Assembly: GCA_016209155.1 (NCBI GenBank) | Contig: JACQWU010000184.1 | Location: 1-9,369 of the forward strand | DNA length: 9,369 nucleotides | Direction: 5' to 3' | DNA from: Candidatus Desantisiibacteriota bacterium | GTDB taxonomy: Bacteria > JACRDZ01 | In this document: piece by piece, positions 432 through 9,331 of the stretch | Layout of the letters: each line of letters begins with the position of its first letter | Numbering within the stretch: the stretch's first letter is position 1 | The notes under the pieces: generated by a model | Seen by the model: the letters and a program-made list of their open reading frames with translations, nothing else | The model's database searches: none | Told to the model about the DNA's origin: nothing | Made by a program: the position numbers and the translations under genes

Positions 432-2423
432 ATGCATACGAGGATGTCGAAGGTCCAGATTGTGGGTCCAAAGAGTCTTTTCCTAGATGCCATTAGTTTT
501 TTCCATAATTTAGGAGTTTTGCATGTTGAGAATATTACGCGTGAAGTAGTTGAGCATGGTGATGAATCTATAGTAAAACCTATGCAGATAGACGCTACTC
601 AGATGGACAGAAAAAATAGTATTGAAGCCGCGTTAATAAAGATAAACGGGATAATCTCCACTTTAAAAGGCAAAGCACCTGATATCAGCAAAGAAAAAAG
701 AGATAGTATTTACAAAGAAATATGGAGTAAAACTATTGATGAATTATTAACCGAAGCAGACATTATAGTTGAGGGCCTGGAAGCAAAAGCCACTTCTTTA
801 TATGAAAAAAAGAATTCCCTGGAATCAAAGCTTTCCTTATTTGAAAAATATGAACCAATCCTCGAAAAAATACAACCTCTTGCCAGACAAATTTGCACGC
901 TTGAAGGTTTTGAATCAATAGCACTGCTTGTTGATAAGCAGAATAAAGCAGGTATTGATGATTTGAAAGAAGAATTAAAACGTATATGCAAGGATCAGTG
1001 TGATCTTGTTTCTTCTGAGGTGGATGACAATAATATAGCAGTTATCATAATTTACAACAAAATTTATGCAAAAACCATACATGATTTCCTTTCTATGGAA
1101 AATGTAAATGAAATAAAGCTCCCCAGTGAATTATCCAGTAAACCATTCGAAACAGCCCTTGACGAGATACACAGCAGTAAAAAAAATTTACCTCAGGAAT
1201 TAGCCAAAGTAACTGAAGAGTTGGAAGCTCTTTCATCAATATGGCATCATAGAATAATAGCAGTCAGAGATGTTTTAAGAGACAGGATCGATGAAATTCA
1301 AATGATCCCGCAGTTTGGTACAACAGGATATACCTTTGTTATTACAGGCTGGATGCCGGATAAAGAAATAGATCGTTGTAAACAGGCGCTTATAGATGAG
1401 TTTTTTGGCAAAGTGGCTTTGATAAAACTGGATGTTTCGCATCATGAAATGGAAAAAGCTCCTGTTGCGCTTTCCAACCCTCCATGGGCAAAACCCTTTG
1501 AGTTTTTTTACAGTTTTGTAAAACTCCCCAGGTATGGAGGAGTTGATCCCACACCTTTTATGGCAATATTTTTTCCTATTATTTTTGGAATGATGGTTGG
1601 AGACATTGGATACGGACTGATTATTCTCGGGATAGCGCTTTTGCTTAAAGCTAAATCTAAAGGCGATGATATATTTGAAGTATTTTCCGGTGTTCTCAAG
1701 CTTGCTTCTATTGGAGCGATTATATGGGGTTTTCTGTATTTAGAAGCTTTTGGAGACGGACTGGAAATTGTGCTTAAAAAAATGCATATCCATATACCCG
1801 AAACGCACATATTCGGGATTATTCCTTTCCCTCTTAATAGATTGGAATTTATGAGCCATCTGCTTGTGATGGCAGTAGTGATGGGGATGGTACATGTAGG
1901 ATTTGGACTGGTATTTGGAATGATTAACGGACTCAGAGAACATCAGAATAAGCATGTTATAGAAAAAGCAGGAATGTTCTGTATTTTTATAGTCGCACCG
2001 CTTTTTCTGGTTATTGGAGTAGCCTTAAATATAAATTTATTTAAAGTTATAGGAGGATTAGCTTTATTCGCGGGAGTAATCGGTTCGGTTGTTGGTGGAG
2101 GGATTAAAGGGTTGATAGAAATATTTGGGACCATGAGTAATATTTTTTCATATTCGCGTATTATGGCAATAGGCCTTGCGGGTGTTATTCTTGGAGCAGT
2201 AGCAAACAGGCTTGGTATGGAAATCGGGGGGATGGGGGGAGTAGGGATGATGATGGTTGGATTTATTCTGGCGGCTCTCCTTCATGCTATAAATATTATA
2301 GTAAGCACATTTAGTCCTTCTATTCACACTCTGCGTTTACATTTAGTGGAATGCTTTACAAAATTTTATGAACCTGCAGAATGTGAATACAAACCGTTTA
2401 AAAAGACAGGAGGTGAAAAATAA
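432..2423 (+). CDS. atpI: A/V-type ATPase membrane stator subunit I (a-subunit equivalent)
   Basis: A 663-residue membrane subunit that forms the ion half-channels beside the K ring and anchors the E/G stalks. Residues 1 to about 360 are the cytoplasmic arm; the opening RMSKVQIVGPK and then GVLHVEN are typical. From about residue 377 there are around eight membrane segments, near 377-392, 395-407, 415-440, 474-500, 510-537, 538-562, 572-596 and 600-630. Arg576 in SYSRIMAIGLA corresponds to the essential Arg of yeast Vph1 (SYLRLWALSLA), and Arg635 lies in the conserved RLHLVE. The end KFYEPAECEYKPF matches the family's KFYEGG..F.PF signature. Length is normal. AGAGGAGA just upstream supports the ATG. 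Its TAA overlaps the K start by one base, which suggests translational coupling. Confidence 0.97.
   Translation: MHTRMSKVQIVGPKSLFLDAISFFHNLGVLHVENITREVVEHGDESIVKPMQIDATQMDRKNSIEAALIKINGIISTLKGKAPDISKEKRDSIYKEIWSKTIDELLTEADIIVEGLEAKATSLYEKKNSLESKLSLFEKYEPILEKIQPLARQICTLEGFESIALLVDKQNKAGIDDLKEELKRICKDQCDLVSSEVDDNNIAVIIIYNKIYAKTIHDFLSMENVNEIKLPSELSSKPFETALDEIHSSKKNLPQELAKVTEELEALSSIWHHRIIAVRDVLRDRIDEIQMIPQFGTTGYTFVITGWMPDKEIDRCKQALIDEFFGKVALIKLDVSHHEMEKAPVALSNPPWAKPFEFFYSFVKLPRYGGVDPTPFMAIFFPIIFGMMVGDIGYGLIILGIALLLKAKSKGDDIFEVFSGVLKLASIGAIIWGFLYLEAFGDGLEIVLKKMHIHIPETHIFGIIPFPLNRLEFMSHLLVMAVVMGMVHVGFGLVFGMINGLREHQNKHVIEKAGMFCIFIVAPLFLVIGVALNINLFKVIGGLALFAGVIGSVVGGGIKGLIEIFGTMSNIFSYSRIMAIGLAGVILGAVANRLGMEIGGMGGVGMMMVGFILAALLHAINIIVSTFSPSIHTLRLHLVECFTKFYEPAECEYKPFKKTGGEK
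2408..2415 (+). promoter_or_regulatory. Strong ribosome binding site for K
   Basis: AGGAGGTG lies 7 nt before the K start and inside the last codons of I. It is the fullest Shine-Dalgarno match in the operon. That fits the need for many K copies per complex, although the link to dosage is inference. Confidence 0.85.
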
Positions 2424-2692
2424 TGGCAGAAGCAAACGTAGCAGTAGATTCAGCATTAGCAGTAGCAAAAGTATGGCAGAATATCGGTGTTATAGCCGGT
2501 GCAACTTTATCGATAGGTATTACTGCTCTGGCTACAGGATATACACAGGGTAAAATTGGACAGGCAGGATGCGGCGCAATAGCTGAAAAACCTGAAGTTG
2601 CAGGAACAGTTTTCATTCTTGTTGCTATTCCTGAAACAATGGTAGTTTTGGGATTCGTTATTGGTGCTATGATTTTATTCTTTGTAAAATAG
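2423..2692 (+). CDS. atpK: A/V-type ATPase c-ring subunit K (proteolipid)
   Basis: An 89-residue two-helix proteolipid, many copies of which form the ion-carrying rotor ring. Helix 1 covers about residues 20-42, a polar loop with GKIGQAGCGAIAEKPE follows, and helix 2 covers about 60-87. Glu71 in AIPETMVVLGF is the ion-binding carboxylate in the middle of helix 2. The size is that of a single hairpin, not the duplicated form of Enterococcus hirae NtpK. The Na+-site Gln that I recall following the Pro-x-Thr motif in sodium-type rings is Met73 here, and helix 1 has no Gln in its membrane part. Proton coupling is therefore more likely, but this is a weak inference. It overlaps the I stop codon by one base. 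Confidence 0.95.
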   Translation: MAEANVAVDSALAVAKVWQNIGVIAGATLSIGITALATGYTQGKIGQAGCGAIAEKPEVAGTVFILVAIPETMVVLGFVIGAMILFFVK

Positions 2693-2717
2693 TTTTAGTT
2701 TTATGTGAAAAAATATA

Positions 2718-2763
2718 CACAGATAATAAACTAAAAACATAGCTAAAATGATAATTATCTGTG
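2718..2763 (+). promoter_or_regulatory. Intercistronic stem-loop between K and E
   Basis: CACAGATAAT (2718-2727) and ATTATCTGTG (2754-2763) are perfect 10-bp inverted arms around a 26-nt AT-rich loop. No T-run follows, so it is not a standard intrinsic terminator. It could protect the K end of the mRNA from 3' decay or lower read-through into E; both roles are inference. Confidence 0.6.
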
Positions 2764-2779
2764 CAGAGGGAGTCTGTGC
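2758..2779 (+). repeat. Short direct repeat that could pair alternatively with the K-E stem
   Basis: TCTGTGC occurs at 2758-2764 and again at 2773-2779. Both copies are complementary to CACAGA at 2718-2723, so two mutually exclusive pairings are possible. The second copy lies closer to the E ribosome binding site. The repeat is short and may be chance. Confidence 0.4.
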
Positions 2780-2801
2780 CCTAAAATTTGAAAGGTATCA
2801 C

Positions 2802-2806
2802 AGGAG
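2802..2806 (+). promoter_or_regulatory. Ribosome binding site that sets the E start
   Basis: AGGAG lies 5 nt before ATG 2812 and favours that start over the in-frame TTG at 2788, which has no such site upstream. Confidence 0.7.
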
Positions 2807-2811
2807 ATTAT

Positions 2812-3408
2812 ATGTCATTAGAAAAAATATTTGAAACTCTGGATGAAGAAGCTGAATATCAACGTAAAGAACTTTTAGGAAAAGCCGAAGCTGAAGCTAA
2901 AAAAATAATACAGGAAGCTGAGGAAGAAGCCCAAAAAATTATCAAAAGCAGTATTGATAAGATGGACATCTTATTGCGTATAGAAAAATCAAGGCTTCTG
3001 ACAGAAATAGAGCTGGCAAAAAAGAGAAAAATAGCTAAAGCTAAGGATGAATACACATCACGAGTTTATGAAGATACGGAAAAGTATTGTAAAAAATTAA
3101 GGGATAATCCTGAAAATCATAAAAAAGTATTCAAAAATTTATTTCTGGAGTCTCTTGGTGAAGCTCATGGCAGTAAAAATATAGTTGTTCTGGTAAATAA
3201 TAAAGATAAAGAATTAGCAGCAAGGATTTTAAGTGAATCAAACTTAAATTATGAAGTTAAGGTTGTGGATAATTCTTTTGACGGCGGGCTTTGTCTTCAA
3301 GTAGAGGGTAACCGCATTGTGATATATAATACCTTTGAATCACGGCTGGAAAAAGCCAAGAAAATTTTATTGGCTCAACTTACTGAGGTGCTTTTTAGTG
3401 CGCAATAA
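2812..3408 (+). CDS. atpE: A/V-type ATPase peripheral stalk subunit E
   Basis: A 198-residue stator subunit that pairs with the G/H-like coiled-coil protein to link the top of A3B3 to subunit I. The N-terminal half (about residues 1-100) is a charged Ala/Glu/Lys coiled coil; GKAEAEAKKIIQEAEEEAQK is typical of the family. The C-terminal half is a mixed alpha/beta head with DNSFDGGLCLQVEGNRIVIYNTFESRL in the place where E subunits carry GG..v....g.i...NTfe.Rl. Length is normal. I chose ATG 2812 because of the AGGAG before it; an in-frame TTG at 2788 would add eight residues of no family likeness. The 3' end overlaps the C gene by 11 bp, so the two are probably translationally coupled. The gap before it holds a stem-loop. 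Confidence 0.93.
   Translation: MSLEKIFETLDEEAEYQRKELLGKAEAEAKKIIQEAEEEAQKIIKSSIDKMDILLRIEKSRLLTEIELAKKRKIAKAKDEYTSRVYEDTEKYCKKLRDNPENHKKVFKNLFLESLGEAHGSKNIVVLVNNKDKELAARILSESNLNYEVKVVDNSFDGGLCLQVEGNRIVIYNTFESRLEKAKKILLAQLTEVLFSAQ
3385..3390 (+). promoter_or_regulatory. Ribosome binding site that decides the GTG start of C
   Basis: GAGGTG lies inside the end of E, 7 nt before GTG 3398. The alternative ATG at 3419 has no recognisable site upstream. Confidence 0.65.
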
Positions 3409-4723
3409 TCAAAGTTCAATGCAAATAGAAAATTACGGGTATGTTAATGCCCGTATAAGGGGAATGAAAAGCCTGCTCATAAGCAAAAATTTTTATGAAG
3501 ACTTATTGAAAGCCAGTGATTTTCCCGGTTTGGTTAATTTGCTTGAAAAGACTAATTATAAGCTGGAGGTTGAGGAGTGTGCTATCTCTCACTCCGGAGT
3601 AGAGGGTATTGATGAGGCTCTCAAGAGAAACTTATCAAGAACTTTTCGTAAAATTTTAGGTTTTGTAGGTGATGAACCCAGAAATCTAATTCTTTTATTT
3701 CTTGGAAGATGGGATATGCATAATATAATTACCATTTTACGCGGTATTCATATTTCAGCCCCGTCTGATCAGATTCTTGAGAGCCTTATACCAGCTGGTC
3801 AATTAGATATGCCTGTTTTAAATCAGCTTGCAAGTGAAACCACTATAAAGGGATTTATAGATATTTTAGCTACATTGGGTATTCCATATGCAAAGGTACT
3901 GAATGATAAGTATCCTGAATATTCAAAAGAAAAAAATTTATCAATTTTAGAATTGTCCTTACATAAAGCATATTATCAATATGCTTTGAGTAATTTAGAT
4001 AGAATGAATATGAATTATAAAATAATGAAAAATATTATATCTCAGGAAATAGATGCATTAAATATTATAACTATTTTACGTCTTCAGAAAGTTAATATAG
4101 AAGATTTTATTAAAAAGAGTGAAGAGAAACTTGATAAAAAAACAAAGAATTTAAAAGATTTAAAGAAACCCTCAAAAAGTTTAAGTATAAGATTGAAATC
4201 ATTATGGGGTAAATTTTTTGCTTCTGATGATGTATATAAAAAAGCTGATATAATGCAGGAAGTAAGAAATTTAGCCGGTATAAAAAGACGTGTTTCACAG
4301 GCAAGCCTGCCAAAAACTCAAGAAGCTAAAAAAGAATATGAAAAGCGCCGTGAGTGTGTAAAAGAATTCTATGTCTCCGGCGGCAAGGAAATAAGTGAGG
4401 ATTATTTTATAGATTTATGCTTAACCCTGGATGTGGAAAAAGTAGTAAAAGATCTTGAAAAAACATCTTTCGGACCTATTCTTGAAAATGCATTGGGCAG
4501 ATATATCGAATATAATAATATATCAATTTTAGAAAGAAAGCTGGAAGAGCAAATTACTAAAAATGGTATAAATGTTACTTATAAAGGTCCGCTGTATATT
4601 GGGGTTGCTATAGGGTATATCTGGAAAAAATATAATGAAATAGTAAATTTAAGAATTATTGTACGCTGTAAAAGCGTTGGCATGCCTGACAGGAAAATCA
4701 GAGAAGAATTAGTTCTGGTTTAA
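3398..4723 (+). CDS. atpC: A/V-type ATPase subunit C (rotor socket on the K ring), with insertion
   Basis: A 441-residue subunit that seats the D-F shaft on the K ring (family d/C, yeast Vma6). The diagnostic N-terminus YGYVNARIRGMKSLL is present, as are LGRWDMHNIITILRGI, the second-domain ITILRLQ and the third-domain SGGKEISEDYF and IGYIWKKYNEIVNLRII. Start choice: GTG 3398 has a well-spaced GAGGTG, while ATG 3419 fits the family N-terminus directly but has no ribosome binding site. Either start gives a sound protein. The chain is longer than the 320-380 residues I expect. The excess lies mostly at residues 238-322, a Lys/Glu-rich stretch between the second and third domains. An open frame extends back to 3335 but has no family likeness there. 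It overlaps E by 11 bp. Confidence 0.93.
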   Translation: MRNNQSSMQIENYGYVNARIRGMKSLLISKNFYEDLLKASDFPGLVNLLEKTNYKLEVEECAISHSGVEGIDEALKRNLSRTFRKILGFVGDEPRNLILLFLGRWDMHNIITILRGIHISAPSDQILESLIPAGQLDMPVLNQLASETTIKGFIDILATLGIPYAKVLNDKYPEYSKEKNLSILELSLHKAYYQYALSNLDRMNMNYKIMKNIISQEIDALNIITILRLQKVNIEDFIKKSEEKLDKKTKNLKDLKKPSKSLSIRLKSLWGKFFASDDVYKKADIMQEVRNLAGIKRRVSQASLPKTQEAKKEYEKRRECVKEFYVSGGKEISEDYFIDLCLTLDVEKVVKDLEKTSFGPILENALGRYIEYNNISILERKLEEQITKNGINVTYKGPLYIGVAIGYIWKKYNEIVNLRIIVRCKSVGMPDRKIREELVLV

Positions 4724-5184: not shown

Positions 5185-5565
5185 ATGATAAAAGGTAAAA
5201 TCACTAAAATATCAGGTCCGGTTGTTATTGCAAAAGAAATGACAGGATCCAAAATGTATGATGTTGTTAAAGTTGGTGAATTGGGACTTATCGGTGAAAT
5301 CATACGACTCGAAGCTGATAAAGCTACTATTCAGGTTTATGAAGATACTTCAGGCTTAATAGTTAATGACCAGGTTGTAAGCACTGAAAGCCCTCTTACA
5401 ATTGAGCTGGGACCCGGACTTTTAACCTCAATTTATGACGGTATTCAAAGGCCTTTACCTGTCATAGCACATGATCATGGTGATTTTATTTCAAGAGGAG
5501 TAAATGTTCCTGCTTTAAATCGTAAGAAAAAATGGCTTTTTAAACCTGCTGTAAAAAGTTCTTGA
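5185..5565 (+). CDS. atpA: A/V-type ATPase catalytic subunit A, N-terminal part (broken gene)
   Basis: The first 126 codons of the catalytic A subunit. Residues 1 to about 75 are the N-terminal beta-barrel; [47 protein letters not shown] and [16 protein letters not shown] are hallmark blocks. It then enters the A-specific bulge region ([24 protein letters not shown]) and breaks off. Family likeness ends at Lys124; the last two codons read Ser-Ser and are followed by three consecutive stops. The continuation is in the next frame from 5558. ATG 5185 is preceded by GAGGAG 11 nt away. This piece alone has no catalytic site and would not work by itself. Confidence 0.9.
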
Positions 5566-5571
5566 TAATAA
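5551..5571 (+). other. Frameshift and deletion junction in A
   Basis: The N-terminal frame ends with Ala-Val-Lys at 5548-5556 and the downstream frame resumes with GTT at 5558. The five-A run at 5553-5557 is the join; one A fewer would make a single open frame. In the upstream frame the next codons are AGT, TCT and then TGA TAA TAA. Comparison with the family shows that about 49 residues of the bulge are also absent here. Confidence 0.8.
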
Positions 5572-5584
5572 ACATGAAGTAAAA

Positions 5585-6772
5585 TTGTATCATATCTGGC
5601 CGGTGCGTATAGCAAGACCTTTTAAAAAGAAGCTGGATCCTGATGTGCCATTCCTTACCGGTATGAGAATTTTTGATACATTTTTCCCGATAGCAAAGGG
5701 AGGAAATGCTATTATCCCCGGACCCTTCGGCAGCGGTAAAACAGTTACTCAGCAGTCTCTTGCCAAATGGGCTGATGCTGATATTATTGTCTATGTCGGA
5801 TGCGGTGAACGCGGAAATGAAATGACCGAAGTTCTTGTTGAATTTCCTCAACTGGTTGATCCAAAATCCGGAATGCCTCTTATGCAAAGAACAATTCTTG
5901 TTGCAAACACATCAAATATGCCTGTTGCAGCAAGAGAAGCTTCAATTTACACGGGAATTACTCTGGCTGAATATTTCAGAGATATGGGGTATGATGTTGC
6001 TATGATGGCAGATTCAACATCCCGCTGGGGTGAAGCTCTTAGAGAAGTATCTGGACGTCTGGAAGAAATGCCCGGTGAAGAAGGTTATCCTGCATATCTT
6101 GCAACACGTCTTGCAAATTTTTATGAAAGAAGCGGAAGAGTTATGTGTACGAATTCAGGTGAGGAAAGAACAGGTTCAATCACTGTTGTCGGCGCTGTTT
6201 CACCTCCGGGCGGAGATTTTTCCGAACCTATGACTCAGAATTCATTACGTATAAGCGGTGCTTTTTGGGCATTGGATGCAAGTCTTGCTCATCGCCGTCA
6301 TTTCCCTGCTATAAACTGGACCAAGAGTTATACTCTATACATGGGGCAGATACAGAATTGGTTTTCAAATAAAGTTGCTCCTGACTGGAAAGACTTAAGA
6401 GATAAAGCAATGTTCCTTTTGCAGAAAGAAGTTGAATTACAGGAAATAGTCCAATTGGTTGGTCCTGATGCATTACCTGAATCAGAAAAAGTAATTTTGG
6501 AAGTTACCAGAATGATCAGAGAAGATTTTCTGCAGCAGTTTGCTTTTCATGAAATTGATGCCTATTGTCCTCCGATAAAACAATATTGGATGTTAAAGGC
6601 AATAATAAGTTTTTATGATTCAACCTCAGAGGCTGTAGGAAGAGGTGTTACGCTGCAGCAAATATTCAGTTTGCCGATAAAGAATGAAATTGCGCGTATG
6701 AAAGAAATACCGCTTGATAAGGCTCCTGAAATTTTAGCAAAATTAAATGAAAAAATAAAAATCAAACTTTAG
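5585..6772 (+). CDS. atpA: A/V-type ATPase catalytic subunit A, C-terminal part (broken gene)
   Basis: The nucleotide-binding and C-terminal domains of subunit A, 395 codons from the TTG at 5585. Family likeness begins earlier, at 5558 ([17 protein letters not shown]), so the TTG is probably not a real start and it lacks a good ribosome binding site. GPFGSGKT (5720-5743) is the Walker A loop. GERGNE holds the catalytic Glu at codon 5807 and the adjacent Arg at 5810. [30 protein letters not shown] and [14 protein letters not shown] follow, then a helical C-terminal domain with [18 protein letters not shown]. No intein interrupts the P-loop. In a joined chain of 528 residues the Walker Lys is 185 and the catalytic Glu 208, against 234 and 257 in Thermus as I recall. 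Both differ by 49, which places the loss before the P-loop. All catalytic motifs are intact. Confidence 0.95.
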
Positions 6773-6810
6773 ATGTCACAATGTGATATTTAGTGATTAA
6801 TATTTTATGA

Positions 6811-6816
6811 GAGGGG
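6811..6816 (+). promoter_or_regulatory. Ribosome binding site that sets the B start
   Basis: GAGGGG lies 8 nt before ATG 6825. An in-frame ATG at 6807 overlaps this region and has no site of its own, so 6825 is preferred. Confidence 0.65.
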
Positions 6817-6824
6817 CAAAAGAA

Positions 6825-8228
6825 ATGGCAAATAAATTATCTCTTGTTTCCAGTGAGTTTAGGACGATTAGTTATGTTACAGGACCACTTATTTTTGTTG
6901 AAGGCGCCAAAGGAGTTTCGTACGGTGAGATGGTAGAAATTACTTTGTCGAATGGTAAGATAAGAAATGGGCAGGTGCTGGAAATTTCCGAAGAATTAGC
7001 CTGCGTACAGGTTTTCGAAGGAACACAGGGTATAGATGTTGATAAATGCAGTGTAAAATTTAAGGGTGAAATTGCAAAAATAGGTGTTTCGGTTGACTTA
7101 TTGGGACGTGTTTTGAACGGGTTTGGAAAACCTATAGATGGAGGACCTGAAATTCTTCCAGAGGCAAGAGTTGAAATAGCAGGTTCACCTATTAATCCCT
7201 GTTCACGGGCGGAACCAAGGGATTTTATTCAGACAGGAATTTCAGCAATTGATACTTTAAATACACTTGTTCGAGGACAGAAACTGCCGATATTTTCAGG
7301 GTCGGGACTTCCTGCCAATGAATTAATTGCTCAGATTATCCGTCAGGCAAAAGTAAAAAGCGGTGAAAATTTTGCAATTGTTTTTGGAGCTATGGGTATT
7401 ACAAACCGTGAGGCATCTTTTTTTCAGCAGAGTTTCGAACAGACCGGTGCATTGCAGAAGGTTGTATTCTTCCTTAATCTTGCGGATGATCCTACAATTG
7501 AGCGTATAGTCACGCCGAGATGCGCTCTTACAGTTGCAGAGTATCTTGCATTTGAGCATGATATGCAGGTTCTTGTTGTTCTCACTGATATGACTAATTA
7601 TTGCGAAGCATTACGTGAAATTTCAACAGCACGTGAAGAAGTTCCGGGAAGACGAGGTTACCCGGGTTATATGTATACAGATCTTTCAACTATTTATGAA
7701 AGAGCAGGAAGAATAAAAGGTAAAAAAGGTTCAATTACTCAGCTTATTATATTGACAATGCCGGATGATGATATAACTCATCCAATTCCTGACCTAACCG
7801 GATATATTACTGAAGGACAGATAGTTTTGAGCCGTCCATTGCATAGAAGAGGAGTTTTCCCTCCTATAGATGTTCTCCCGTGTCTTTCCCGTTTGATGAA
7901 TATGGGAATAGGTGAAGGTAAAACAAGAGAAGATCATAGAGGGCTTGCCAACCAGCTTTACGCTTCATATGCTCAGGGAAGAGACCTCAGACGTCTTGTT
8001 GCAATAGTCGGAGAAGAAGCGCTTTCCGAACTGGACAGGAAACATTTAAAATTTGCCGATGATTTTGAAAAATTTTTCATATCCCAGGGTGAAGATGACC
8101 GGACAATTGAGAAATCTTTGGGTACCGGATGGGAATTGCTTTCAATTTATCCGGATGAAGAATTAAAACAGATAAAGCGCGAATTTATAACTAAATATAA
8201 AGTAAAACCCGGAGTTGAAAGTAAATAA
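6825..8228 (+). CDS. atpB: A/V-type ATPase regulatory (non-catalytic) subunit B
   Basis: A 467-residue subunit that alternates with A in the A3B3 head and completes the nucleotide sites from across the interface. The N-terminal barrel has [13 protein letters not shown] and [23 protein letters not shown]. The P-loop place is the non-catalytic [17 protein letters not shown], diagnostic for B rather than A. Further marks are [48 protein letters not shown] and [14 protein letters not shown]. Arg356 in this last motif is the likely arginine finger (Arg360 in Thermus as I recall). The C-terminal domain is helical with [14 protein letters not shown]. Length is normal with start 6825. Unlike A, it is fully intact. 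A small inverted repeat, TCACA-A-TGTGA at 6776-6786, lies in the A-B gap. Confidence 0.97.
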
Positions 8229-8978: not shown

Positions 8979-9227
8979 CTATTCTTTTACAAGTAAAATT
9001 AAGCTTTTTTCACTTTTTTGTGCTGAATTGCTTAAGTCGGATGGTAATCCAGCCGCATCTAAACCATTAATGAACTCGGGCAATTTTTTTATACTGATTT
9101 CTATTGCATCCTTACATGATTTTAATAATGGCAATCTATTATGAGTAACAATTGTAACAAAATAATACCCATTCGTATCATAATCATATTTTTTTAATCT
9201 GATATTTTTTCTAAATTTTATCGGCAT
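8979..9227 (-). pseudogene. Truncated REP-associated tyrosine transposase (RAYT, Y1/HUH type)
   Basis: The minus strand from ATG 9227 reads MPIKFRKNIRLKKYDYDTNGYYFVTIVTHNR, the typical N-terminus of RAYT proteins (IRL..YDY...G.YFVTI.THNR). RAYTs are single-strand transposases that act on REP palindromes. Likeness continues to about LPEFINGL at 9060. The expected next block, with a ..MPNHiH. HUH motif, and then the catalytic Tyr are missing. In their place the frame runs through a REP-like unit (coding for DAAGLPSDLS) and about 19 unrelated residues to a TAG at 8979. The remnant has about 55 of the usual 150 or more residues and must be inactive. The same frame stays open upstream to 9320, but those residues are translated REP units. 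No ribosome binding site is visible. Confidence 0.75.
9039..9060 (-). repeat. REP-like unit inside the RAYT remnant
   Basis: GGATGGTAATCC followed by AGCCGC (+ strand) matches GGACGGTAATCC plus CCCCGC at 9258-9275 in 15 of 18 positions. It lies at the point where RAYT likeness ends, so it may mark the rearrangement. Confidence 0.55.
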
Positions 9228-9253
9228 AATTTTTTTTGTAATGTATGATTTTT

Positions 9254-9279
9254 TGTGGGACGGTAATCCCCCCGCTACA
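9254..9279 (-). repeat. REP-like unit upstream of the RAYT remnant (minus orientation)
   Basis: On the minus strand it reads TGTAGCGGG followed by an imperfect palindrome with GGGA and TCCC arms. It shares its 9-base head with the unit at 9332-9355 in the opposite orientation. Confidence 0.6.
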
Positions 9280-9300
9280 TTGCGTTTTTCTATTGTATTG

Positions 9301-9318
9301 GGCAAATTACAATTTGCC
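9301..9318 (+). repeat. REP-like palindrome
   Basis: GGCAAATT, AC, AATTTGCC is a perfect 8-bp inverted repeat. It resembles the palindrome at 9339-9355 in arm sequence, and both are followed by AT, so they look like diverged copies. Confidence 0.6.
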
Positions 9319-9331
9319 ATATATTTTATTT

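Follow-up and report, generated by a model that had tools for sequence, protein, structure and literature searches.

An unmarked join, probably false, splits the V/A-ATPase A-subunit gene and omits most of its bulge in a draft Candidatus Desantisiibacteriota genome

Errors of local assembly are common in metagenome-assembled genomes (MAGs) and, together with the incorrect protein-coding sequences to which they give rise, are a known problem in MAG curation (PMC7111523). At such errors and at mis-sized scaffold gaps, sequence is lost or wrong at the join, across unrelated genes (PMC7111523), and the locus described here is alike in both respects. It lies on a 9,369-nt contig (JACQWU010000184.1, C85; hereafter the window), which is shown here in full, of a draft scaffolded MAG of Candidatus Desantisiibacteriota (G000; 3.08 Mb in 352 contigs, 78.8% complete). 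Compared with the V/A-ATPase A subunits of Thermus thermophilus (3a5c/5gar) and Pyrococcus horikoshii (1vdz), both parts of the split gene in the window are ordinary A sequence, with the Walker A and GER motifs intact, but 52 bulge codons are missing by the yardstick of the nearest relatives and the reading frame changes at that point. A similar loss in the same gene is found in an unrelated MAG, UBA33 (L067, DAYE01000054.1), where it occurs at two NN joins (approximately positions 5821 and 5957) with approximately 28 and 20 codons lost, as estimated from the reading frames; each of these joins conceals far more sequence than two bases. In contrast to UBA33 and to the described scaffold-gap errors, the join in the window is without N and reads as continuous sequence.

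The V/A-ATPase operon of the window encodes the subunits I, K/c, E, C, F, A, B, and D, and every subunit gene is open apart from that for A. The gene for subunit B, directly 3′ of A (positions 6807–8228, forward strand), is intact on the basis of its ORF and Pfam match, and is 88% identical to those of the relatives. The gene for subunit C contains a 57-nt in-frame gap compared to G003, in a poorly conserved linker, that is probably a natural indel. Close to the contig end, an ORF on the reverse strand (8979–9320) contains GYYFVTIVTHNR, which we take to recall REP-associated tyrosine transposases; a Pfam search with this ORF gave no match. A second, divergent V/A-ATPase A-B-D set is located on contig C148 (L128, positions 1–2789), where it is truncated by the contig start. 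The nearest relatives used in this study, G001 and G003, belong to the same phylum and each have two V/A-ATPase operons.

The A gene (positions 5185–6772, forward strand) consists of two reading frames that meet at approximately position 5556, as a sequence-only reading of the window had described for the ORF 5185–5565 and the frame of ORF 5585–6772. The N-terminal piece (5185–5565) comprises the β-barrel and the start of the bulge, matches Pfam ATP-synt_ab_N, is 75% identical to residues 1–126 of the A subunit of a relative, and ends in FKPAVKSS at a stop codon after the junction. The C-terminal piece (5558–6772), in the next frame, encodes the nucleotide-binding and C-terminal domains (Pfam ATP-synt_ab and ATP-synt_VA_C) with intact catalytic motifs, and the frame of ORF 5585–6772 stays open upstream to approximately position 5555. 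At the junction (GTAAAA/AGTTCTT, 5551–5563), which we presume to be a false join, the change of frame coincides with the loss of approximately 155 nt of bulge-coding sequence, as judged by comparison with the intact relatives. The β-barrel, nucleotide-binding and C-terminal domains and the Walker A and GER motifs are all present according to Pfam and motif positions, and the bulge segment is absent as assembled.

Skipping one base at position 5557 yields a fused reading of 528 aa, with the Walker lysine at residue 185 and the catalytic glutamate at residue 208. The equivalent residues are 234 and 257 in Thermus caliditerrae A (L057), which bears out the previously noted offset of 49 residues from Thermus, and 237 and 260 in the nearest relatives, an offset of 52. 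The predicted deletion size of 146 nt holds only by the Thermus yardstick; against the nearest relatives the loss is collinear, with 52 codons absent and a single base gained, for a net 155 nt. The absent stretch corresponds to residues 125–176 of L004, VGDEIGNGDIVGIVVENGTFEHRIMVPPTLNKLHKVTKVAKKGEYTITDTIV. A move of the bulge to another contig was considered and rejected, as the bulge peptide of a relative found no match in the MAG, which is weak evidence at a completeness of only 79%.

When the alignment with close relatives that had been proposed from the sequence was run, a short form in a single frame was not shared. Both G001 and G003 encode A as a single frame of 586 aa that includes the bulge, and the window A is approximately 86–88% identical to these proteins across its right-hand part. 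Since an intact single-frame gene in the relatives speaks against an inherited short form, a lineage-specific short A subunit was ruled out. In the wider alignment, 90 of the 92 other A genes have 74–82 residues where the window has 29. The earlier statement that the lost part is most of the bulge holds. The remaining two short rows (L067 and L103) have NN scaffold gaps at the bulge region and were for that reason discarded as further bulge-less A genes, leaving no bulge-less A without scaffold gaps among the 92.

This alignment bears directly on whether the window could encode a genuine bulge-less A subunit, expressed through +1 frameshifting at AAA-A (GTA AAA A GTT). The junction lies on a run of five A on which tRNA-Lys could slip +1, and the downstream catalytic motifs are intact; if frameshifting did occur, the resulting V1 motor would lack the bulge that is specific to A. 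However, the bulge is covered in all aligned A genes other than the two with NN gaps, and junctions on A-runs were also found at breaks in two unrelated genes, those encoding PPDK and UDP-glucose dehydrogenase (see below), so that the A-run is not particular to A. With nothing in its favor beyond the A-run and the intact motifs, a functional bulge-less or frameshifting A subunit is very unlikely, and we give the frameshifting proposal hardly any credence.

Identities by codon position to the left and right of the break (approximately 0.90–0.93 at second and 0.45–0.52 at third positions, with similar values for the B gene) are typical of purifying selection, and any real event in A would therefore be recent. 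The sequence-only reading had concluded that the event is either recent or an artefact; both parts stand, and the presence of similar lesions in five or more further genes of the MAG strongly favors the artefact.

These lesions were identified by comparing approximately 0.56 Mb of G000 (60 contigs and the window) against 1005 ORFs taken from 1.2 Mb of G003. Good matches in the G000 sample were obtained for 81 of the G003 queries, and among these well-matched queries six genes are each broken into two collinear parts that lie in different frames and lack the sequence between them. Besides A itself (approximately position 5556 of C85, −155 nt), frame-changing internal deletions split the genes for PPDK (C11:1549, about −385 nt), UDP-glucose dehydrogenase (C34:3625, about −254 nt), RadC (C3:17495, −103 nt), RtcB (C57:7840, −101 nt), and AccA (C51:5072, −79 nt), with names assigned by reading the sequences and rough lesion sizes read from the alignment ends. 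RadC shows just 47% identity to the reference, and this match may be a paralogue. Frame-changing insertions were not seen in the 0.56 Mb compared with G003; the same list contains four large positive values, which we read as neighboring paralogues or overlapping queries, and one value of −8 that spans an N run.

Single-gene searches in the relatives, covering genes picked because they are split in G000, showed that PPDK, UDP-glucose dehydrogenase, RtcB, and AccA are each encoded in one frame in G001 and G003 and in two pieces in G000. In G002, the matches to PPDK and AccA are unsplit, the match to UDP-glucose dehydrogenase begins only at residue 139, and RtcB gave no match. No other full-length copy of AccA, PPDK, or RtcB was found in the G000 MAG.

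Approximately one third of random deletions are expected to be in frame, and the loss in the flagellar ATPase FliI (C343, L129, positions 1654–2880, reverse strand) would be such a case. This gene lacks the P-loop segment in frame and matches Pfam ATP-synt_ab only at profile positions 71–213, which we read as what may be another false join. On the same contig, FliG and FliH form a single ORF of 478 aa (2893–4329, reverse strand), which may be naturally fused or, perhaps, the product of another false join.

The lesions in other genes also weigh on the possibility that the deletion in A is real and recent, and that the gene is a young pseudogene tolerated through the second V/A-ATPase operon. 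The A and B genes on C148 would make such a loss tolerable, both relatives likewise have two operons, and the pristine flanks are as a young event would leave them. Yet similar lesions are present in this MAG in conserved genes unrelated to A, among them the only AccA found. The lesions seen are deletions, whereas gene decay would be expected to leave point lesions or insertions as well, and these are lacking. Moreover, the genome is not reduced, with 3.08 Mb at 79% completeness versus 2.6–2.7 Mb for G001 and G003. We consider a real deletion unlikely.

The assembly itself bears traces of scaffolding. We found 17 N-runs in 14 of the 60 sampled G000 contigs, compared to two in 1.2 Mb of G003, which indicates that G000 was scaffolded. 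N-runs are present on four of the six contigs that carry a split gene, a co-occurrence that is only suggestive, as longer contigs hold more of both; for a comparison of N-run length with true missing length there were no usable cases. At the AccA junction approximately 10 nt (GCAGATGGCA) match both sides, and three junctions (A, PPDK, and UDP-glucose dehydrogenase) lie on A-runs, which makes joining by short chance overlaps plausible.

Scattered, clean deletions of approximately 80–400 nt in otherwise pristine, conserved and partly essential genes are the pattern that false joining leaves when short reads are assembled and scaffolded. The missing stretch of A is carried in a single frame by both G001 and G003, and similar lesions affect unrelated genes, in frame in the case of FliI, which shifts the balance strongly toward an artefact; the lack of N at the A junction counts against it. 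Taken together, we estimate a probability of roughly 88% that the lesion in A is a false join in the scaffolded draft MAG, with approximately 155 nt omitted. An assembler or gap-closing step would have joined the two A pieces end to end at approximately position 5556, leaving out the bulge-coding sequence between them, and the change of frame would follow simply from an omitted length that is not divisible by three. We infer that software rather than the cell made these joins, plausibly through short chance overlaps, and from the sequences compared the cause looks assembly-wide instead of specific to A.

G000 appears to hold unmarked false joins that lose approximately 80–400 nt inside conserved genes, and frameshifts, gene losses, and “domain-less” variants in this MAG should not be trusted without the reads. 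As biology, the lesion in A very probably has no significance, and the living organism most likely has an ordinary, full-length A subunit.
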